Positions 53,958 through 64,000 of a DNA stretch of 64,000 bases are shown here, in pieces. Position numbers and translations under genes: made by a program. Numbering within the stretch: position 1 is the first letter of the stretch; every line of letters starts with the position of its first letter. Source of the DNA: Vibrio litoralis DSM 17657 (GTDB lineage Bacteria > Pseudomonadota > Gammaproteobacteria > Enterobacterales > Vibrionaceae); the NCBI RefSeq assembly GCF_000426765.1, contig NZ_KE384567.1, positions 541,152 through 605,151 of the forward strand, in the 5' to 3' direction. The notes beneath the pieces are model-generated. The model saw only the letters and a program-made list of their open reading frames with translations. It had not been told where the DNA came from and searched no databases.

Positions 53958-53984
53958 AAAAGCCCCGATCGTTCGGGGCTTTTT
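53958..53984. terminator. Bidirectional terminator between yiaV and the halogenase-like gene
   Basis: AAAAGCCCCGA and TCGGGGCTTTT form an 11-bp stem with a TCGT loop between convergent genes. Confidence 0.9.
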
Positions 53985-54022: not shown

Positions 54023-55270
54023 TTAACTAGAACAAATTTCAGCCAAGGTACTCAAGCGCTTTTGCGGGTTAGCTACATAAGGGTTAGAGGTGTCCCACGC
54101 ATAACCAGCCAAAATGGAGCTGATTTTTTTCTTTATGTCTGGATGAGAATTTTCAAAAAACACCACATTTTGGAAACGTCCGTCATACCAACCTTCGACA
54201 TAAGCTCGGAAGGTATCTACCCCAACCATTAATGGCTCTGCGTAATCTTGTTGCCAATCGACCACTTCACCATTTAATTGACGAATTAACGTATCGGCTG
54301 CCATCTCCGCAGACTTCATCGCAATCGTCACGCCAGATGAGAATACTGGATCTAAGAACTCACCAGCATTACCCAACATCGCATAGTTGCTAGCCGCGAG
54401 GTGCTTCACATTGGCCGAGTAACCGCCAATTGTACCGCTCATGTGACAAAAATCAGCATCCCTAAATAGCAACTTTAAATGCGGCTCTTCTGAGGTTAAT
54501 TGTTTCAACGCGGCAATCTCATCATCAGAATAAGCGTCAAAGAAATCAGGCGTTGAAACGACCCCAACAGAACACACGCCATTGCTAAATGGAATTAGCC
54601 AATACCAAACACTTTGATTATCAGGATGCACATAGATGGTGATCTTATCGCGATCATAATTTAACTCAGTAGCTAAGCTGTCCGTAATATTATCGGTAAC
54701 ATGAGTAAATAACGCCTTGCGTTGCGGGAGATCTGAAGGTAATTCTAAATCAAGTAGTCGAGGTAATACTCGTCCATAACCGCTAGCATCTAAAATAAAA
54801 TCGGCTTGAATTTGATAGGGCTTGTCTGATTCATCAATAACAGATAACACCGGCTGTTTTGGCTCAACATCTACTTCAGTTACGGTATGTTGATAACGAA
54901 TCGCAACACCTTGCTTTTGCGCTTCGTCCGCGAGTAGTTTATCGAATGGCCCGCGCTGAACTTGAAAAGTCGTGCCCTCACCTGGGGTATACTTGTCGGT
55001 AAAATCAAAATAAGTATATTTATCTTGATAACGAAATGCGGCGCCATTTTTAAATTGATAACCCGCTTGGTTGACCGCTTCAAACATATTGGCTTTTTTT
55101 AAGCTTTCCATACAAGCCGGTAGCAAGCTTTCACCAATAGAAAAACGAGGAAAGGTACTGCGCTCAAGAACCACACAATCTATATTATGCTGATTTAAAA
55201 TCGCGGCAGCAACCGAGCCCGAAGGACCCGCACCAATAATCACCACCGATGTTTTCTGTACTGTGCTCAC
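54023..55270 (-). CDS. FAD-dependent halogenase/monooxygenase-like protein of the APE cluster
   Basis: A 415-residue flavoprotein. The FAD-binding GAGPSG is at 13-18. FPRFSIGESLLP follows at about 40-51, a motif of flavin-dependent halogenases and their relatives. VWYWLIPF in the middle matches the WxWxIP motif of halogenases. A DASGYGR segment contacts FAD. It could halogenate or hydroxylate the aryl head, or reduce a double bond (the fold also includes geranylgeranyl reductases). It follows the methyltransferase by 25 bases on the minus strand; the two form a unit divergent from the main APE operon. Confidence 0.78.
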   Translation of the reverse strand: MSTVQKTSVVIIGAGPSGSVAAAILNQHNIDCVVLERSTFPRFSIGESLLPACMESLKKANMFEAVNQAGYQFKNGAAFRYQDKYTYFDFTDKYTPGEGTTFQVQRGPFDKLLADEAQKQGVAIRYQHTVTEVDVEPKQPVLSVIDESDKPYQIQADFILDASGYGRVLPRLLDLELPSDLPQRKALFTHVTDNITDSLATELNYDRDKITIYVHPDNQSVWYWLIPFSNGVCSVGVVSTPDFFDAYSDDEIAALKQLTSEEPHLKLLFRDADFCHMSGTIGGYSANVKHLAASNYAMLGNAGEFLDPVFSSGVTIAMKSAEMAADTLIRQLNGEVVDWQQDYAEPLMVGVDTFRAYVEGWYDGRFQNVVFFENSHPDIKKKISSILAGYAWDTSNPYVANPQKRLSTLAEICSS

Positions 55271-55295
55271 TCTAAATCCCTATCTAAATTCAATA

Positions 55296-56375
55296 TTAAT
55301 CCGCTTTAAGATGTAAAAGCGTGTGCCCAAGCCCTATATTGTCAATGCGATTGTTCACCACAAATCCGGCTTCTTTTACGATCTCTAAAAAATCATCGCT
55401 ACGATAAAAACGGCTATTACCATTGGCTAAACAGGTAAAATAAAGCGAAGTAGCATTTAAGCTGTATGACGCCGCTTCATAGCGCTGCGCATCCCAAAAT
55501 AGCTCAAGGATATACACATCGTCCTGAGGCTTCATTGCCGCACGAACTCGACGCAAAATACTGAGGATTTCCATCGGCGAGAAACAGTCTAAGAATTGAC
55601 TCATCCACCATACATCAGCCCCTTGTGGCAGAGCTTGTTGCCTATCGAGCATATTGGTTGGGAAAAACTCAACCCGCTCAGAAAAACCATGCTGAGCAAC
55701 ATTCTCTTTGGCTAACTCAATTTGTTGTGGCAGATCGATAATCGTAACGTTGACATTCTCATCATGCTGGCAACATTGCAGTGTCCACTTCCCCGTATTT
55801 CCGCCAATATCAAAAATGCGTTTAGGTTGATTAGCAAAAATATGCTTCAACAAAATAGGGAAGGTATTATCCGAATAAAAATGATCAAACTTAAACCAGC
55901 TATCTTGCGCCTTTTCCGGCAAGCTAGATAAGCCTTCATAAATCGTTGACCAATCGCCTAACTCTTTCAAACCCGCAGGCGTGCCTTCTTGAATCGCTTC
56001 GGTTAAATGCATCATGCCGGCATAACAAACGTCTGCCGTAAAATCCATATTGGCAATAGTCATACCATCGCTTAATAAGGAATGGCCTAGCTTAGCCAGT
56101 ACATAATGCTCATCACGCCAAGTCACGATATGTGCACTTAACGCCATATCTAATAACACTTTGACACCGTATTCAGACACTTGAGTAGCTTCGGCAATTT
56201 GTGCGGCCATCATGCCTTGCTCTGGCTGTTTTTCTAATGCTGCTAAAATACCAAGATCACGTAAAGTTCGAGCGGTATGAAAAACAATGGGAGAAAAGGC
56301 TAATTTCTGAGCTTCAGTTTTCGCTTCTAATGCAGTGTATGGATCGTGTTGATATTGCTTCAAAATAAAGTCCAA
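55296..56375 (-). CDS. SAM-dependent methyltransferase of the APE cluster (ApeB type)
   Basis: A 359-residue class I methyltransferase. A winged-helix-like dimerisation domain (about 20-100) is followed by the SAM-binding core FDIGGNTGKWTLQ and YILELFWDA. The layout resembles O-methyltransferases of aromatic natural products. In known APE clusters a gene in this place methylates the aryl head. It divides the pigment locus with the apeC operon across a 172-base divergent promoter region. Confidence 0.8.
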   Translation of the reverse strand: MDFILKQYQHDPYTALEAKTEAQKLAFSPIVFHTARTLRDLGILAALEKQPEQGMMAAQIAEATQVSEYGVKVLLDMALSAHIVTWRDEHYVLAKLGHSLLSDGMTIANMDFTADVCYAGMMHLTEAIQEGTPAGLKELGDWSTIYEGLSSLPEKAQDSWFKFDHFYSDNTFPILLKHIFANQPKRIFDIGGNTGKWTLQCCQHDENVNVTIIDLPQQIELAKENVAQHGFSERVEFFPTNMLDRQQALPQGADVWWMSQFLDCFSPMEILSILRRVRAAMKPQDDVYILELFWDAQRYEAASYSLNATSLYFTCLANGNSRFYRSDDFLEIVKEAGFVVNNRIDNIGLGHTLLHLKAD

Positions 56376-56454
56376 ATAACGAGTCAGTAGATAAGAGGAA
56401 CAAAGCTATCGCAGTTCGAAGCGATAATTATATCCCCATTAAGGTTATATTTTT

Positions 56455-56484
56455 TTGTATCAATTAATGACTGAACAATATAAT
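56455..56484 (+). promoter_or_regulatory. Predicted promoter of the APE operon
   Basis: TTGTAT (56455-56460), 18 bases, then TATAAT (56479-56484), 64 bases before the apeC ATG in a very AT-rich divergent region. The -35 box is weak, which suggests an activator is needed. Confidence 0.45.
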
Positions 56485-56547
56485 GTTTACATCAATAAAA
56501 ATGTTATTTTTACATTTTGTTTTCACAAATGGTATGAATGAACATCA

Positions 56548-57288
56548 ATGAGCACAATTGCATTTAATATTGAGCAATGGCACGCACTCTCTCCGGGCTT
56601 CAGCACGCCTGCTGATTGGCGTCATTATTGTTCGTTTAATACTGGTAGTGAAAATGCATCGCTAGAGGTCAATTTAATTCCAGCGATGATGCGCCGCCGC
56701 ATGAGCCCGCTGAGCAAAATTGCCTTACAGACCGCCATCCATTTACAGCAATCAAGCCCATCCGACTTTGACTACCTGATTTTTTCAAGTCGTCATGGTG
56801 AACTGCCGCGTACCGTCGAATTACTACAGCAAGTGCTGCAAGGTGAAGAAGCCTCACCAATGGCATTTTCTCAATCGGTACATAACACTAGCGCAGGCTT
56901 ATTTACCATTGCCACCAAAAGCCCGATTCCAGCCACCTCACTTGCCGGCTGCGAATCTAGCCTACATCATGCGTTAATTGAGGCTAGTGCTTACTTATCC
57001 GAAAATCCACAGCATAAGATATTGCTGATCGACTTTGATGCGCCACTGCCAAAACCTTATGACCAATTTGAATCACAACCCACTCCACCATTGTATTCAT
57101 TAGGTTTAATTTTAACTTCAGGTACACAGACACAAATTACTTGGCAGGCCAAGACAACATCAAATATAGAATTCAAAAATCGTTCGCAAACCATCGATAT
57201 CATTCAACAATTAGCGAGCCAAAGCCGTTCCTGGACGATTGAAGATTCTCGAAATCAATGGCAATGGCAACGAGGTGACGCTGAATAA
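56548..57288 (+). CDS. apeC: Ketosynthase-like chain-length factor (ApeC type)
   Basis: A 246-residue protein equal to the N-terminal half of a ketosynthase (Ketoacyl-synt_2, PF13723). The signature FSQSVHNTSAGLFTIAT is at about 107-123. AGCESS puts Cys135 near the nucleophile position of true ketosynthases, but the C-terminal half with the two catalytic histidines is missing. In Xenorhabdus, ApeC is reported to act as a chain-length-factor partner of the ketosynthase ApeO. It starts the operon, and its stop overlaps the next ATG by one base. Confidence 0.8.
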   Translation: MSTIAFNIEQWHALSPGFSTPADWRHYCSFNTGSENASLEVNLIPAMMRRRMSPLSKIALQTAIHLQQSSPSDFDYLIFSSRHGELPRTVELLQQVLQGEEASPMAFSQSVHNTSAGLFTIATKSPIPATSLAGCESSLHHALIEASAYLSENPQHKILLIDFDAPLPKPYDQFESQPTPPLYSLGLILTSGTQTQITWQAKTTSNIEFKNRSQTIDIIQQLASQSRSWTIEDSRNQWQWQRGDAE

Positions 57289-58076
57289 TGGCAAACCATT
57301 CACTTAGCTTTGCCCAACGTTGTAATAAATACTGGCGAGTAATTGCCACTGGCAGTTGCTTTGCAATTTTTGGTATTGGCGCACTGTGCCTAACCTTTAT
57401 CGTCTTTCCACTGATGACTTGGGCGGCTCGCAATCAAACCCAACGTGAAATGCGGGTTCAATCGATCATTCAACAGGCTTTCGATTTATTTTGCCGTACC
57501 ATGAAATTTACTGGCACGATTGATTACCGCTTCGATAATGTAGAGCAAATGCAACAAGACAGAAATTGCTTGATCGTCGCCAATCACCCAAGCTTAATTG
57601 ATTATGTGTTAATTGCCTCTCACCTACCGCAATGCGATTGTCTGGTCAAAGCCGCGATTTGGCATAACCCATTTATGAAAGGGATCGTAAAAGCCGCCGG
57701 TTACATCCCTAATCGAGACCCAGAAAGCTTGCTCGATGACTGTAGCCAACGGCTAAACCATGGTAATGTTCTGCTGGTTTTCCCTGAAGGTACTCGCACG
57801 ACGCCCGGTCAAACCTTAAAGTTACAGCGAGGCGCAGCACAAATTGCCGTGCGCACGCAAACCGATTTAAGAGTGGTTCACATCACTGTGAACCCGAGCT
57901 TTTTAACCAAGCAAATGAAATGGTACCAAGTACCCGATACTAAACCCTTTTTTCATGTAGAAGTGAAAAACAAAATTAAGGTCGAGGAATTCATCCAAAG
58001 CAGTGACTCTCCAACCACTGCTGCGCGTCAACTGAATCGACATTTATCGAGTGCGATATTCCCCGATATCAAGTAG
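57288..58076 (+). CDS. Lysophospholipid acyltransferase-like protein (ApeD type)
   Basis: A 262-residue 1-acyl-glycerol-3-phosphate acyltransferase-like protein. One membrane helix spans about 22-46. The catalytic motif is NHPSLID, with His100 and Asp105, and FPEGTRTTPG is the glycerol-phosphate-binding block. It probably transfers an acyl or aryl polyene chain to a lipid in the inner membrane. It is translationally coupled to apeC. The 145 bases after it, before the first ACP gene, show nothing clear. Confidence 0.8.
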   Translation: MANHSLSFAQRCNKYWRVIATGSCFAIFGIGALCLTFIVFPLMTWAARNQTQREMRVQSIIQQAFDLFCRTMKFTGTIDYRFDNVEQMQQDRNCLIVANHPSLIDYVLIASHLPQCDCLVKAAIWHNPFMKGIVKAAGYIPNRDPESLLDDCSQRLNHGNVLLVFPEGTRTTPGQTLKLQRGAAQIAVRTQTDLRVVHITVNPSFLTKQMKWYQVPDTKPFFHVEVKNKIKVEEFIQSSDSPTTAARQLNRHLSSAIFPDIK

Positions 58077-58221
58077 ATACAAATAGCGAACCAATGTACA
58101 AAATAACGGAAGACAGACTTCCGACCCCAACGTCATTCATGTTGTGGCAACAAAGCTGCCGCTTCAATAGGCAAGGGTATATTATAATGAATAAACCTTT
58201 TATCAATTTAGGTAGGTTAGA

Positions 58222-58479
58222 GTGGAACAATTACACAACGAATTAAAAGCATTAATTATTGAAGCGTTAAACCTTGAAGATATTCAAGTGGAAGATATCG
58301 AAACTGACGCGGCTTTATTTGGTGATGGGCTAGGTTTAGATTCTATCGATGCACTAGAACTCGGTCTTGCCATTAAGAAAAAGTATCATATTGTGATTGA
58401 TGCTGACGATAATCAAACTCGTGAGCACTTTGCTTCTGTCGCGAACCTAGCGAACTACATTAGCGCTCAACAAAACTAA
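58222..58479 (+). CDS. apeE: Acyl carrier protein 1 of the APE cluster
   Basis: An 85-residue acyl carrier protein with the phosphopantetheine serine at Ser41 (GLGLDSIDALEL). The charge is strongly acidic. The start is GTG with TAGGTAGG upstream; no ATG fits. It would carry the growing polyene or the aryl starter. Which of the two carriers holds the starter cannot be told here. Confidence 0.87.
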   Translation: MEQLHNELKALIIEALNLEDIQVEDIETDAALFGDGLGLDSIDALELGLAIKKKYHIVIDADDNQTREHFASVANLANYISAQQN

Positions 58480-58500
58480 CTCAAACAGAACAAGAATATT

Positions 58501-58758
58501 ATGACGGAAATAAACAGAGACGAAGTATTCAGCAAAGTACAAGATGCCTTTGTTGAGCTATTTGAAATTGATGCTGATGATATCAAGCCAGAATCAAAAC
58601 TTTACCAAGAGCTGGACCTCGATAGCATTGATGCGGTTGACCTTGTAGTTCATCTACAAAAATTAACCGGCAAAAAGATCCAACCTGATGAGTTTAAAGC
58701 AGTACGTACCGTCAACGATGTTGTTGATGCTGTGGTAGAGCTACTCAAGGAAAAATAA
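58501..58758 (+). CDS. apeF: Acyl carrier protein 2 of the APE cluster
   Basis: An 85-residue acyl carrier protein with the modified serine at Ser42 (ELDLDSIDAVDLV). It is only distantly like the first carrier, so the two probably have different roles. Its stop overlaps the next gene by one base (TAATG). Confidence 0.87.
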   Translation: MTEINRDEVFSKVQDAFVELFEIDADDIKPESKLYQELDLDSIDAVDLVVHLQKLTGKKIQPDEFKAVRTVNDVVDAVVELLKEK

Positions 58759-59321
58759 TGCGCGCATTAACGGCTTTATCTGCCCTACTGCTACTGGCTT
58801 ATCCTTTAGCGGTTTATTACGGATTGAGCCGTTGGGGCATTGGCGTGATAGGTATTATCTTTGTCGCCCTGTTTGTCATTCGTATTGCAGCCGGTCATCA
58901 AACTAAGTTAAAAGAACTTAAATACATTGCTTGGTTAAGTGGCGCTGCCGGTATTATTCTCACTTTATGTGCGACATTATTTCGCGAACACGGTTGGTTT
59001 ACCTACTACCCAGTGGTGGTTAATCTTCTGATGTTTCTATTATTCTTCAGCAGCTTATGGCAATCGCAAACCTTAGTGGAGCGACTGGCTCGCCTACAAG
59101 AACCTGAACTACCAGAAAGTGGCGTGCGCTACACTCGCAATGTCACCAAAGTATGGTGTGGCTACTTTGTGATTAATGGCTCGATCGCACTTTATACCTG
59201 CTTTTTGCCACTTGAAATCTGGACCTTATACAATGGCTTACTCAGTTATTTGTTTGCCGGAAGTTTATTTACGATTGAATGGCTAGTAAGAGGTTATATC
59301 CGGAAATCTAACGAGCAATAA
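58758..59321 (+). CDS. APE-cluster membrane protein (COG4648, ApeG type)
   Basis: A 187-residue membrane protein with about five to six helices and the conserved loop RLQEPELPESGVRYTRNVTKV near the middle, where it meets the next helix. It is a regular member of APE clusters with no proven role. It is coupled to the second ACP gene by a one-base overlap. Confidence 0.78.
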   Translation: MRALTALSALLLLAYPLAVYYGLSRWGIGVIGIIFVALFVIRIAAGHQTKLKELKYIAWLSGAAGIILTLCATLFREHGWFTYYPVVVNLLMFLLFFSSLWQSQTLVERLARLQEPELPESGVRYTRNVTKVWCGYFVINGSIALYTCFLPLEIWTLYNGLLSYLFAGSLFTIEWLVRGYIRKSNEQ

Positions 59322-59362
59322 TCAACTCGTTACTATTACTGCTAGTTTTAAAAACTCCCAAT

Positions 59363-60796
59363 ATGGAAATTGCCACCAGCATGATACCTGCTTCTTTTGT
59401 TCCTCTTTCTCAATTGATGAATACCGATAGAGCCACTCAACGCTCTGTCGATTTTCCTGTTGCATTCGATGGTTTCAACCAGCAAGGCCAGGCAATTAGC
59501 TGGCAACAATTTCAACAAGATACTTATCAACTCAGCCAACAATTACTTGCTCGTAGTGAATCTCGTTGGGCGCTTTGTTTTGACAATAGCTACTGGTTTT
59601 CCGTGGCATTTATGGCGGCTTATCATAGTCAAAAGCAACTTATCATACCGGGCAATTTACAACCGGCGGCCTTAGCCGAACTTTCTCAACACTTTGATGC
59701 GGTTTTGCATGATGAGGTGATTGACTCCACGACTCTCGCGCCACACTTTGCCTTTGATGTTCCCAAAGTATTGGCCAAGAAATCTGAGATGGGCTTGCTT
59801 CAATTTAAAGATTTAGCCGATGTAGCAATCACCTTGTTTACTTCAGGCTCCAGTGGCCAACCCAAAGCCATCGACAAGCCACTATCAATTCTCGAAAAAG
59901 AAGTGGCACAATTACAAGCTACTTGGGGTGAATCATTATCCGGAGTAACCACAGCTAGCACGGTTTCTCACCAGCATATTTATGGTCTGCTATTTCGCAT
60001 TCTATGGCCACTTTCGGCTGGCAGGCCATTTCTTGCCCAAAACTGGCAATACCCTGAGCAAATTATCGAACATGCAGATCAAGATACGGTTTTGATCAGT
60101 AGCCCCGCTTTACTCAAGCGCTTAACCCCAGCCGAGCCAGCAAACCGTTATCGCGCTATTTTTTCATCCGGTGGTCCACTACCTCTGGATGCCGCGAAAA
60201 CCTGTAATACATTATTTAACAGTTACCCACATGAAGTGCTCGGCAGCACTGAAACTGGTGGTATCGCCCATCGCCAACAGCGCTCAAGCGACACACCTTG
60301 GCAAGCATTTGTCGGCACGCAAATTGATGTCAATGCCGAGCAATGTTTGAAAATCAAATCACCGTTGGTGGATATCGCAAATTGGTATCAAACTGCCGAT
60401 CAATGTGAGTTATTAGATGATCAGCATTTTATTTTGAAAGGTCGTGCAGACCGAGTCATTAAAATAGAAGAAAAGCGTATATCATTAAGTGAGATTGAGC
60501 GTCGTTTAAATCAACTTGATGACATTACAGAAGCCGCAGTGATCCCATATCAAGAGCCTAAGCGTTTAATTACCGCTGCCGCGATTACGCTATCCCCAAT
60601 TGGACAAGCGAAACTCAAGCAACTCGGTAAGGGAAAATTTGTCCTGATGCTACGCCAATCTTTGCATCAATGGATTGAGCCTGTGGGTATTCCACGCCGT
60701 TTTCGAGTGGTTGATGAGATTCCCCTTAATACTCAGGGTAAGCGGTTAATCAGTGATATTGAGCAACTCTTCCACTCAGAATCGAGAAGTAAATAA
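59363..60796 (+). CDS. apeH: AMP-dependent aryl-acid ligase of the APE cluster (ApeH type)
   Basis: A 477-residue ANL-superfamily adenylating enzyme. Core motifs: TLFTSGSSGQPKAIDK (A3), LGSTETGGIAHR (A5), LKGRADRVIKIEEKRIS (A8) and NTQGKRLISD with the A10 lysine near the C-terminus. It is expected to activate a hydroxycinnamic or hydroxybenzoic acid and load it on an ACP. The start has no strong ribosome site; an ATG at 59381 is the alternative. Confidence 0.82.
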   Translation: MEIATSMIPASFVPLSQLMNTDRATQRSVDFPVAFDGFNQQGQAISWQQFQQDTYQLSQQLLARSESRWALCFDNSYWFSVAFMAAYHSQKQLIIPGNLQPAALAELSQHFDAVLHDEVIDSTTLAPHFAFDVPKVLAKKSEMGLLQFKDLADVAITLFTSGSSGQPKAIDKPLSILEKEVAQLQATWGESLSGVTTASTVSHQHIYGLLFRILWPLSAGRPFLAQNWQYPEQIIEHADQDTVLISSPALLKRLTPAEPANRYRAIFSSGGPLPLDAAKTCNTLFNSYPHEVLGSTETGGIAHRQQRSSDTPWQAFVGTQIDVNAEQCLKIKSPLVDIANWYQTADQCELLDDQHFILKGRADRVIKIEEKRISLSEIERRLNQLDDITEAAVIPYQEPKRLITAAAITLSPIGQAKLKQLGKGKFVLMLRQSLHQWIEPVGIPRRFRVVDEIPLNTQGKRLISDIEQLFHSESRSK

Positions 60797-60797
60797 G

Positions 60798-61157
60798 ATG
60801 ACAGTGATAAGAAAACCCACCGTTATAAAGAAAAAAGGTGACGAAAACACCCTCACTTTACATCTACAAGTCGATGCTGAAATTGAAGACTTTAAAGGTC
60901 ACTTTCCTCAGTTTGCTTTATTGCCGGGGGTCACTCAAATTGATTGGGCAGTCCATTATGCTCAGCAACTTTTCGATTCGCCAAAATCCTTTCAATCAAT
61001 GGAAGTGATCAAATTCCAAGAGCCTATTTTAAAAGACACACTAGTCAAACTGACCTTAACTTGGCATGCTGACAAACAAAAGCTGCACTTTAGTTATACC
61101 TCAGGGCAAGATGATGAGGTACGTACTCATTCATCGGGTCGAATCTTATTAGGTTAA
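60798..61157 (+). CDS. apeI: Hotdog-fold 3-hydroxyacyl-ACP dehydratase (ApeI type)
   Basis: A 119-residue FabZ/FabA-like protein. GHFPQFALLPGVTQ puts the catalytic His at residue 35. It is short, with one hotdog domain. In Xenorhabdus, ApeI pairs with ApeP to form the active dehydratase, so a partner is expected beyond the window. The ATG at 60798 comes directly after the ligase stop; an upstream in-frame ATG at 60753 inside the ligase is rejected. Confidence 0.8.
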   Translation: MTVIRKPTVIKKKGDENTLTLHLQVDAEIEDFKGHFPQFALLPGVTQIDWAVHYAQQLFDSPKSFQSMEVIKFQEPILKDTLVKLTLTWHADKQKLHFSYTSGQDDEVRTHSSGRILLG

Positions 61158-61174
61158 AGGAAGCATGTCTTAAT

Positions 61175-62953
61175 ATGGCCTCATTTTCACCCTGCTTTGT
61201 CATTCCTTGCTATAACCACGGCTCGACCATGGCAAGCGTTATCGCCTCTTTGCAGCCTTTTGGCTATCCGATCTTGGTAGTGGATGATGGTAGTGATAGC
61301 GACACCAAAGCGGCTTTAAATAACTTAATCGACACACCAAATCTGACCTTACTTGCCAATCCAGTTAATCAAGGTAAAGGCGGGGCAATGATTTTGGGCT
61401 TACGGGAAGCGCACCGACTAGGGTTTAGCCATGCGATCCAAATTGATGCCGATGGACAGCACGATCCAACCGCCATTCCTCGATTAATTGAAGCCTCAAA
61501 AACCAATCCTGAGCAATTAATCTCAGGTCGTCCTATCTATGACGAATCGGTACCCAAAGCGCGCCTTTATGGCCGTTATGCCACTCATATTTGGGTTTGG
61601 ATTGAAACGCTCTCTTTTGCTCTCAAAGACAGCATGTGCGGCTTTCGTTCTTATCCACTGGATGCAACCATTGCCACGCTCGACCGGTATTCAATGGGTC
61701 TGAGAATGGATTTTGACACTGAGATTATGGTCAAAATGTACTGGCAAGGTGTCGACTGTCAATTCATTGAAACTCATGTTATTTATCCAGAAAATGGCAT
61801 TTCTCACTTTGATGCCCTACACGACAATATTCGCATCAGCAAAATGCACACTAAATTATTTTTTGGCATGCTACCGCGTATTCCTAAACTGATCGCCCGT
61901 CATTTCAAGCCACCTCAAGCAGAAAAAGACAAACAAACCTCAAATACGCACTGGGCGAAAAGTAAAGAACAAGGTTCGGTTTTTGGTATCAAACTGCTAA
62001 TGGCGGTTTACTCTCTACTCGGTCGCTCAGTATTTAATGCCATTCTAAAACTAGTGATTGGTTACTATCACAAAACCGGTAAGCAAGCGAGACTCGCCTC
62101 TGAGCAGTATATCCAACAACTTGAACATTACTGTCGCGAACAAAAGATCGCGTTAGCTACACCGCTTTCTAGCTACCAACACTTGTTATCATTTGGCCAG
62201 ACCATGTTGGATAAACTGGCTGGATGGCGTGGGGATATTACTCGTGATGATTTGACCATTCATGGCAAAGAGCACTTTGAACACGTCATAGGCAACCAAC
62301 AAGGTGTTATTATTCTCGGCTCACATTTAGGTAACTTAGAGCTTTGCCGAGCCATGGGAAGCTTGCGTACCAATGTCACCATTAATGCTTTAGTGTTTAC
62401 CGAGCACGCTGAACGCTTTAACCGTGTCATGAAAGCTGTCAATCCCGACTCCTCGGTTAATCTCATTCAAGTCACCTCACTTGGACCGGATACCGCAATT
62501 TTATTGCAGCAAAAGCTTGAACAAGGTGAATGGATCGTGATTGTGGGTGACCGAACCTCCGTGACCAAAGAACAACGCGTAATCTGGGCGGACTTTCTAG
62601 GTAAACCGGCCCCTTTCCCGCAAGGCCCTTTTATGCTGGCCAGTGTGTTAGCCGCGCCAGTCTATTTATTGTTTGGCCTACGTGATGAACAACAAAGCCA
62701 GAAACGCCCAAACTATCATGTCTATTTTGAACCATTTTATGACCAAATTGTGCTGCCAAGAAAACAGCGTATGCAAGCCTTGCAAGAGGTTGTTCAACAG
62801 TACGCCACACGCTTAGAACACTTCACCTTACAAGCGCCATTACAATGGTATAACTTTTTTAATTTTTGGCAGCTGACCAATCCAACGCCAAGTGACAGTG
62901 CCAGTACGACTCAACACGATCCGAATTCAGGACAAAGTGAACACAATGACTAA
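61175..62953 (+). CDS. Glycosyltransferase 2 - acyltransferase fusion (ApeJ type)
   Basis: A 592-residue two-domain protein. The N-terminal GT2 domain (about 1-240) has CFVIPCYNHGSTMASV and the DxD motif at Asp91-Asp93 (IDADGQHDP). The C-terminal domain from about 290 is a lipid A-type lysophospholipid acyltransferase (LpxL/HtrB) with GSHLGNLELCRAMG, catalytic His384 and Glu389. It may build the lipid anchor by adding a sugar and an acyl or polyene chain. Its end overlaps the lyase start by 8 bases. Confidence 0.83.
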   Translation: MASFSPCFVIPCYNHGSTMASVIASLQPFGYPILVVDDGSDSDTKAALNNLIDTPNLTLLANPVNQGKGGAMILGLREAHRLGFSHAIQIDADGQHDPTAIPRLIEASKTNPEQLISGRPIYDESVPKARLYGRYATHIWVWIETLSFALKDSMCGFRSYPLDATIATLDRYSMGLRMDFDTEIMVKMYWQGVDCQFIETHVIYPENGISHFDALHDNIRISKMHTKLFFGMLPRIPKLIARHFKPPQAEKDKQTSNTHWAKSKEQGSVFGIKLLMAVYSLLGRSVFNAILKLVIGYYHKTGKQARLASEQYIQQLEHYCREQKIALATPLSSYQHLLSFGQTMLDKLAGWRGDITRDDLTIHGKEHFEHVIGNQQGVIILGSHLGNLELCRAMGSLRTNVTINALVFTEHAERFNRVMKAVNPDSSVNLIQVTSLGPDTAILLQQKLEQGEWIVIVGDRTSVTKEQRVIWADFLGKPAPFPQGPFMLASVLAAPVYLLFGLRDEQQSQKRPNYHVYFEPFYDQIVLPRKQRMQALQEVVQQYATRLEHFTLQAPLQWYNFFNFWQLTNPTPSDSASTTQHDPNSGQSEHND

Positions 62954-64000
62954 TCAAAATCGCAATAACAACCGCATTACTTTTGGCGCACAACGCCTGA
63001 CGATTGAAGATGTCATGGCTATCGCTCAGGGTAGTCAGGCACAAATGAACAGCAATGAAGCCTTCACCAGTAAAATTGATCGTGGTGTGGCTTTTTTAGA
63101 GCGTCTTTTACAACAAGAAGGCGTAATTTATGGTGTCACTACTGGCTATGGCGATTCTTGTACGGTTGCCATTCCAATGGATTTAGTCGATGAACTCCCC
63201 CTGCATTTAACCCGCTTTCACGGCTGTGGTTTAGGTGAGCATTTAGATGAACAACAAGCTCGCGCGGTATTAGCCACGCGTTTATGTTCGTTATCGCAAG
63301 GGGTTTCTGGTGTCACTCATGACCTACTCAATCAAATCGTTACCCTAATCAATCAAGGCATTACACCTTTAATTCCACAAGAAGGTTCAGTGGGCGCGAG
63401 CGGAGACTTAACGCCACTTTCTTACCTTGCAGCCGTATTAATTGGTGAGCGTGAGGTGTTATACAAAGGCCAAGTGCGTCCAACTTCTGAAGTATTTTCT
63501 GAACTGAATATCCAACCGATTAAACTTAAGCCCAAAGAAGGCTTAGCGTTAATGAATGGCACCTCAGTGATGACGGCGATCGCTTGTATTGCCTTTAAGC
63601 GCGCAGAATATCTGGCTCAGCTTTCCACGCGTATTACCGCTATGGTGTCACTCGGCATGCAAGGTAATGACTTTCACTTCGATGAAGCGCTGTTTGCCGT
63701 AAAACCCCATCAAGGCCAGCAACAAATTGCCGCTTGGTTACGTGCTGATCTACAAGCAGAACGTCCACCAAGTAATAGTGATCGCTTGCAAGATCGCTAT
63801 TCATTACGCTGTGCACCGCATGTGATTGGCGTGTTGCAAGACACCCTACCGTGGTTACGTCAAATGATTGAAAATGAACTGAACAGTGCCAATGACAATC
63901 CAATCATTGATGGGGATAACGAACGCGTACTACATGGCGGACATTTCTATGGCGGTCATATAGCAATGGCGATGGATACTTTAAAAACCGCCGTTGCAAA
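62946..64000 (+). CDS. Aromatic amino acid ammonia lyase of the APE cluster, truncated at the window edge
   Basis: The frame is open from ATG 62946 to the window end, giving 351 residues of a protein normally near 510-530. The MIO cofactor triad Ala151-Ser152-Gly153 lies in SVGASGDLTPLSY. MNGTSVMT, SLRCAPHVIG and SANDNPI are also present. The family removes ammonia from His, Phe or Tyr. The selectivity pair is Phe91-His92 (TRFHG), unlike HAL (Ser-His), TAL (His-Leu) and PAL (Phe-Leu). In APE clusters it probably makes the aryl acid starter. It overlaps the previous gene by 8 bases. Confidence 0.85.
   Translation, partial: MTNQNRNNNRITFGAQRLTIEDVMAIAQGSQAQMNSNEAFTSKIDRGVAFLERLLQQEGVIYGVTTGYGDSCTVAIPMDLVDELPLHLTRFHGCGLGEHLDEQQARAVLATRLCSLSQGVSGVTHDLLNQIVTLINQGITPLIPQEGSVGASGDLTPLSYLAAVLIGEREVLYKGQVRPTSEVFSELNIQPIKLKPKEGLALMNGTSVMTAIACIAFKRAEYLAQLSTRITAMVSLGMQGNDFHFDEALFAVKPHQGQQQIAAWLRADLQAERPPSNSDRLQDRYSLRCAPHVIGVLQDTLPWLRQMIENELNSANDNPIIDGDNERVLHGGHFYGGHIAMAMDTLKTAVA

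Follow-up and report, generated by a model that had tools for sequence, protein, structure and literature searches.

Gene content and organization of the locus

We analysed a stretch of 64,000 nucleotides from Vibrio litoralis DSM 17657 (hereafter the window; C2:541152-605151 of a 3.8 Mb genome), of which positions 54023 onward take in half of a cluster for an aryl polyene (APE), and we describe here this cluster and the halogenase-like flavoenzyme encoded in it. The cluster comprises 19 genes and is complete once the contig beyond the window end is included. The genes within the window are listed in Table 1. Past the window end, which cuts the ammonia-lyase gene, there follow in order ApeK thioesterase, ApeL (LolA), ApeM (MMPL exporter) and ApeN (DUF3261), and then ApeO ketosynthase, ApeP dehydratase, ApeQ FabG-type reductase and ApeR, a second ketosynthase (all in L003:1800-9665). 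A MerR-like regulator, assigned by eye from the list of open reading frames, comes after ApeR.

A preliminary description of the window had proposed an APE cluster on the grounds of gene content, order and strands, with an aromatic ammonia-lyase of its own and with its remainder lying beyond the window. All of this was borne out: the cluster is complete and gene for gene of the Aliivibrio fischeri type, the lyase matches PF00221, and the end of the lyase gene and ApeK to ApeR are located on the same contig. Ketosynthase and reductase genes, whose absence downstream had been named as speaking against the proposal, are both present there (ApeO and ApeR; ApeQ), so that this outcome did not occur. 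Two gene labels changed in detail. The gene called ketosynthase-like does not code for a ketosynthase itself but for the ApeC chain-length factor (PF13723), and the membrane protein noted in the gene order is present and can be specified as ApeG-like.

As the comparison with other genomes revealed, the order and orientation of all 19 genes are conserved in A. fischeri emors.2.1, A. sifiae, Aliivibrio sp. EL58 and Photobacterium phosphoreum, and the order matches in P. piscicola and P. kishitanii over the extent of the stretch read. The recurrence of these genes in this order elsewhere shows that the cluster is not a product of chance. The APE_Vf cluster of A. fischeri emors.2.1, a cluster type described from strain ES114, agrees with the window cluster in genes, order and strands, with protein identities of 43-85% (flavoenzyme 66%, methyltransferase 75%, lyase 84%). 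The available part of PMC5851621 counts ammonia lyase genes as common to another species' cluster and the V. fischeri ES114 cluster, and assigns APE_Vf to subfamily 2. Of 20 further loci, 14 belong to the window's genus, and within the stretches read 13 of these 14 have the flavoenzyme-methyltransferase pair transcribed away from the ape genes and lyase; in the exception, G015, the flavoenzyme stands by itself and the chain-length factor is encoded on a different contig. The same divergent arrangement was seen in a genome of another family (G096). In Shewanella hanedai the flavoenzyme gene lies between ApeM and ApeO in one gene run, and the best-matching methyltransferase was located on a separate contig. 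Nine named genomes were searched in all; A. finisterrensis gave no match and Pseudoalteromonas sp. NBT06-2 weak matches only.

The E. coli cluster (APE_Ec; record E200086, the one examined) shares the order from ApeB to ApeR, with an ApeA-position gene followed by the methyltransferase and ApeC to ApeR. It differs in having neither ammonia-lyase nor flavoenzyme, and its methyltransferase is not divergently transcribed, unlike that of the window cluster. The ApeA-ApeR table for E. coli CFT073, in the accessible part of PMC8253772, agrees in showing the same order and neither of the two genes. Judged by its sequence, the window cluster is a V. fischeri-type APE cluster, which is a known kind, and as a cluster it is ordinary and routine.

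Table 1. Features of the APE cluster inside the window, with positions counted from the first nucleotide of the window.
Feature	Position	Strand	Evidence and remarks
Terminator-like hairpin, 11-pair stem with T tail	53958..53983	.	Between flavoenzyme gene and convergent upstream gene; consensus match only
Flavoenzyme, 415 aa, GTG start	54023..55270	-	Trp_halogenase PF04820, 79 bits; assigned to flavin-dependent halogenase family, APE-associated clade
SAM-dependent methyltransferase, ApeB/FlxJ family	55296..56375	-	NF053543, 499 bits vs cut-off 560; best PDB match 3dp7
Divergent intergenic region, methyltransferase / apeC	56376..56547	.	
ApeC chain-length factor	56548..57288	+	PF13723, 226 bits, E 7e-67
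ApeD lysophospholipid acyltransferase	57288..58076	+	PF01553
ApeE acyl carrier protein	58222..58479	+	NF006617, 95 bits, above cut-off
ApeF acyl carrier protein	58501..58758	+	NF003757, 132 bits, above cut-off
ApeG-like membrane protein	58758..59321	+	Homology and position in A. fischeri and E. coli loci; IspA PF04279 match weak and under cut-off
ApeH acyl-ACP synthetase (AMP-binding)	59363..60796	+	PF00501
ApeI dehydratase	60798..61157	+	PF22818 ApeI-like, 81 bits
ApeJ fused glycosyltransferase and acyltransferase	61175..62953	+	PF00535 and PF03279
Aromatic amino acid ammonia-lyase, cut by window end	62946..64000	+	PF00221, E 1.5e-165; whole gene C2:604097-605647

The start listed for the methyltransferase is TTG and is provisional. 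The ammonia-lyase scored 407-418 bits against HutH-type models and 372 bits against FlxA and also matched BagA-type models, all under the respective cut-offs. An AT-rich imperfect direct repeat (window 56474-56515; 19 nt, 79%, 23 nt start to start) lies in the intergenic region from which the methyltransferase and apeC genes diverge and might be a putative regulator site.

The methyltransferase is of the usual APE kind by homology

The preliminary description had taken the divergent methyltransferase, together with the flavoenzyme, to point to a modified aryl head. The protein is a plain member of the ApeB/FlxJ family and, by homology, would be the usual APE head methylase; it gives no hint of anything out of the ordinary. 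Against the FlxJ model it was accompanied under the cut-off by the A. fischeri protein (496 bits) and the E. coli ApeB-position protein (474 bits), and because these two are also under the cut-off, we place the methyltransferase in the APE branch of the FlxJ family. A special link between flavoenzyme and methyltransferase was considered and rejected, since in 24 of 24 flavoenzyme loci outside the window's genus there was no methyltransferase in the approximately 10 kb read on each side. The link is further undercut by E. coli, which has the methyltransferase without the flavoenzyme. The methyltransferase accompanies the flavoenzyme in Aliivibrio, Photobacterium and G096.

The flavoenzyme belongs to the halogenase family by motifs, profile and predicted fold

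A conserved lysine and the motifs WxWxIP and FxxPxxSxG are hallmarks of flavin-dependent halogenases, and comparison with Mpy16, PltA and CmlS showed all three to be present in the flavoenzyme. Residues K74, W222, W224, I226, P227, F305, P308, S311 and G313 are kept in all 45 aligned rows, which are made up of the window sequence plus 44 fetched stretches (with three genes entered twice and some rows partial), and likewise in CmlS, PltA and Mpy16. The sequences GESLLP and WYWLIP, pointed out in the preliminary description, are indeed there as residues 46-51 and 222-227. In a profile search, 3nix was matched with 475 bits, nine halogenase chains with 127-188 and weaker halogenases with 38-80, the first non-halogenase (a reductase or hydroxylase) scoring 46. 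The CmlS model gave 145 bits, far below its cut-off of 900.

The predicted structure of the flavoenzyme (mean pLDDT 90) aligned with 3nix at Z 53.3, Mpy16 at 42.6, ChlB4 at 42.4, PltA at 42.1 and Bmp2 at 40.7, and halogenases other than CmlS fell in the range 37-43. The closest solved structure, 3nix, is a flavoprotein of Cytophaga hutchinsonii, a member of the Bacteroidota; it shares 41-42% identity and the same motifs with the flavoenzyme, and its entry title gives no proven function. The flavin-dependent halogenases Mpy16, PltA, ChlB4, CmlS and Bmp2 are alike in fold, their activity being established for those enzymes and predicted here; identity to Mpy16, PltA and CmlS is 27-30%. Motif, profile and predicted structure thus support membership of the flavin-dependent halogenase family. 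A shared fold by itself shows no function. In the tree and alignment, a group of four distant family members on a common branch has neither the lysine nor WxWxIP, from which it follows that the halogenase motifs separate subgroups; two further distant members are gapped at the lysine column.

Halogenase-family genes were also observed in more divergent APE-like clusters (L097, L134, L135, L136, L142, L143, L146, L148 and L149), at about 23-29% identity. Three of these (L143, L148 and L149) have two copies each, and the copies of the divergent clusters are on separate tree branches, so that APE-like clusters seem to have taken up the halogenase family more than once. A further divergent APE-like cluster with a halogenase-family gene, L131, is outside the tree. 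Nine stretches around weak homologues were compared with ape genes only, and one of them, L097, proved to be an APE-like cluster whose flavoenzyme is 24% identical. The genus of G888 is rich in tryptophan halogenases. Plasmid pAUEa of Aureispira anguillae (Bacteroidota; L076) encodes a 42% identical flavoenzyme; an MMPL-acyltransferase-methyltransferase fusion gene and the gene for an AMP-binding protein lie a few genes away. In two plasmid-collection records labelled Neisseria gonorrhoeae (NZ_CP119140.1 158264-159404 and NZ_CP119142.1 157392-158532) the flavoenzyme aligned in two pieces at about 53% identity, perhaps as the result of a frameshift.

The flavoenzyme co-occurs with APE genes across the phylum

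The distribution of the flavoenzyme was determined in samples of 100 relatives, 299 genomes of the phylum and 394 genomes of the order, the window's own genome being counted in each. It was found in 36 of the relatives, in 30 of the phylum genomes and, with a looser limit, in 92 of the order genomes, two of which have broken pieces only. The chain-length factor PF13723 is present in 59 phylum genomes, and all 30 flavoenzyme genomes are among these 59 (Fisher p 3.8e-25), which argues for an APE tailoring enzyme that is not special to this window. Similarly, 72 of the 73 flavoenzyme genomes tested in the order carry the chain-length factor; the 73 consist of the 72 order-sample positives outside the genus, G061 and G405 among them, and G015, the 20 same-genus positives being left out. 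The two genes are at most 25 kb apart in 56 of 70 genomes, far apart on one contig in 6 and on different contigs in 8, although some of the latter may be draft breaks.

The ammonia-lyase, too, goes with the flavoenzyme. It was present in the stretch read at 21 of the 28 flavoenzyme loci, versus 2 of 29 loci lacking the enzyme (p 1e-7, with no correction for relatedness), the 28 being the phylum flavoenzyme genomes except G027 and G046. Because some flavoenzyme-less stretches were short or divergent, the count was also run on the subset with at least 10 core genes, with 21/28 versus 2/19 as the result (p 1.7e-5). In Pseudoalteromonas and Acinetobacter records of a plasmid collection the flavoenzyme gene is positioned between ApeM and ApeN and annotated as NAD(P)/FAD-dependent oxidoreductase. 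This is the name of 10 of the 11 plasmid-collection matches with a product name, the remaining one being called tryptophan 7-halogenase.

Flavoenzyme genes without APE neighbours were found at three loci (L069, L070 and L071, from genomes G086, G015 and G074, respectively). A function apart from APE was considered for the enzyme and rejected; of the neighbours scanned at these loci, those that gave a match have no connection with APE, among them a NorR-like regulator, a MATE transporter, a nitrite reductase, an adenosine deaminase and a dCTP deaminase, and G015 and G074 still have the chain-length factor elsewhere in the genome. An apparent stop in the flavoenzyme of G009 proved to be the gene's own last codon. 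The association with APE genes gives good grounds for assigning the flavoenzyme a part in this pathway.

Activity of the flavoenzyme and alternative readings

Based on these findings, we consider it highly probable that the locus is a complete V. fischeri-type cluster (APE subfamily 2), with the halogenase-family flavoenzyme as a tailoring enzyme of the same pathway. It is extremely unlikely that a flexirubin or xanthomonadin cluster lies here instead: although there are matches to the FlxJ, FlxA, FlxB and LolA2 models, all under their cut-offs, the genes are ordered as in A. fischeri and, lyase and flavoenzyme aside, as in E. coli, and no dialkylresorcinol (darA/darB) or XanB2 gene was recognised by eye among the open reading frames flanking the cluster, the rest of the genome being unsearched for them. 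As described in the available part of PMC3992019, the flexirubin cluster of Chitinophaga pinensis resembles the window cluster in its start from a tyrosine ammonia-lyase and its ring methyl group, and differs in leading to a dialkylresorcinol ester and in having more genes, including several further ketosynthases.

With regard to the reaction itself, halogenation of the phenol ring beside the hydroxyl would be the likeliest single activity, at roughly even chances, and it is our best single guess because of family, motifs and precedent. The modified aryl head put forward in the preliminary description therefore stands in part: methylation is backed by the ApeB/FlxJ homology and halogenase family membership by sequence, motifs and predicted structure, while halogenation itself is what we infer. 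As for precedent, the accessible parts of PMC5577590 and PMC7333567 name AltN of the bromoalterochromide cluster as a flavin-dependent halogenase needed for bromination; deletion of altN abolishes the brominated alterochromide forms, which are coumarate-primed aryl polyene peptides, and the non-brominated ones remain (PMC5577590, in part). According to an excerpt of PMC3691225, a halogenase is encoded in the xanthomonadin clusters of two Xanthomonas species and missing from that of Lysobacter, whose pigment is non-brominated.

A number of observations weigh against an APE halogenase. The APE head of A. fischeri was reportedly found by Cimermancic in 2014 to be 4-hydroxy-3,5-dimethylphenyl, with no halogen. 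At Asn301, in the FAD-binding motif, the clade has GN (45/45 rows, and also 3nix) where CmlS, PltA and Mpy16 have GD. In the structural comparison, p-hydroxybenzoate hydroxylase reached Z 35.7 and other hydroxylases less, and CmlS, at 34.2, ranked below hydroxylases. The flavoenzyme is absent from G071, whose APE cluster (L123) keeps lyase and methyltransferase, and is in pieces in G061 (G061:C1:2728140-2728645) and G405 (G405:C5:20871-21428), both with the chain-length factor kept, which suggests that the enzyme is dispensable in some lineages. G086 is the only one of the 73 genomes in which a flavoenzyme but no chain-length factor was found; as 10 of the 11 genomes of its genus have this factor anyway, co-occurrence there says little. 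Finally, the part of PMC3949708 at hand lists a cluster gene of Azoarcus as a halogenase, yet the pigment proposed is non-brominated.

The non-halogenated head reported for APE_Vf, the clade-specific GN and the fold shared with p-hydroxybenzoate hydroxylases, at a Z above that of CmlS, would fit a halogenase-fold enzyme that carries out a different oxidation on APE, e.g. hydroxylation of the ring or a redox reaction at the polyene, as would the flavoenzyme in records of Acinetobacter, Burkholderia and Cupriavidus, whose habitats are presumably poor in bromide. We regard this as possible but short of an even chance, since lysine 74 and WxWxIP are kept in every aligned row and the profile ranks the nine halogenase chains (127-188 bits) above the first reductase or hydroxylase (46). 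Rather unlikely, in our estimation, is a brominase acting on the phenol head, which would need seawater bromide and perhaps compete with the methyltransferase for the two hydroxyl-adjacent positions. Bromo-APEs of marine Vibrionaceae could then have been missed, because the ES114 cluster product was obtained by heterologous expression (PMC8253772, as far as available), in what we presume was a low-bromide medium. That the flavoenzyme is an expendable or decaying passenger, hardly affecting the product, would accord with its absence from G071 and its remnants in G061 and G405, but is improbable, given that the other copies in the relative, phylum and order samples are almost all full-length open frames and that none of the 45 aligned rows departs from the motifs.

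Proposed pathway and significance

From the observed gene content, gene-for-gene match to A. fischeri, motifs, predicted fold and co-occurrence with APE genes we infer every reaction of the following scheme. The lyase would supply a starter of the cinnamate type, 4-coumarate made from tyrosine being the likeliest, which ApeH would load onto an acyl carrier protein. ApeR is predicted to start chains, and ApeO, with ApeC, ApeQ and ApeI/ApeP, to extend the starter to a polyene, which ApeD and ApeJ may join to a lipid. ApeL, ApeM and ApeN would move the pigment to the outer membrane. The ApeB-type methyltransferase would methylate the phenol ring, and the flavoenzyme would tailor the product with reduced flavin from a general reductase. 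The expected product, as predicted from the genes, is a yellow membrane pigment of the aryl polyene type.

In the accessible portions of the open-licence literature on halogenases and halogenated forms of aryl polyene, flexirubin and xanthomonadin, no reaction was found assigned to the APE flavoenzyme. The value of the locus is that of a pointer to a group of APE-associated, halogenase-like flavoenzymes across the Pseudomonadota, present in 30 of the 59 chain-length-factor genomes sampled. If the flavoenzyme halogenates, halogenated heads would be frequent in a pigment that is among the commonest in bacteria.

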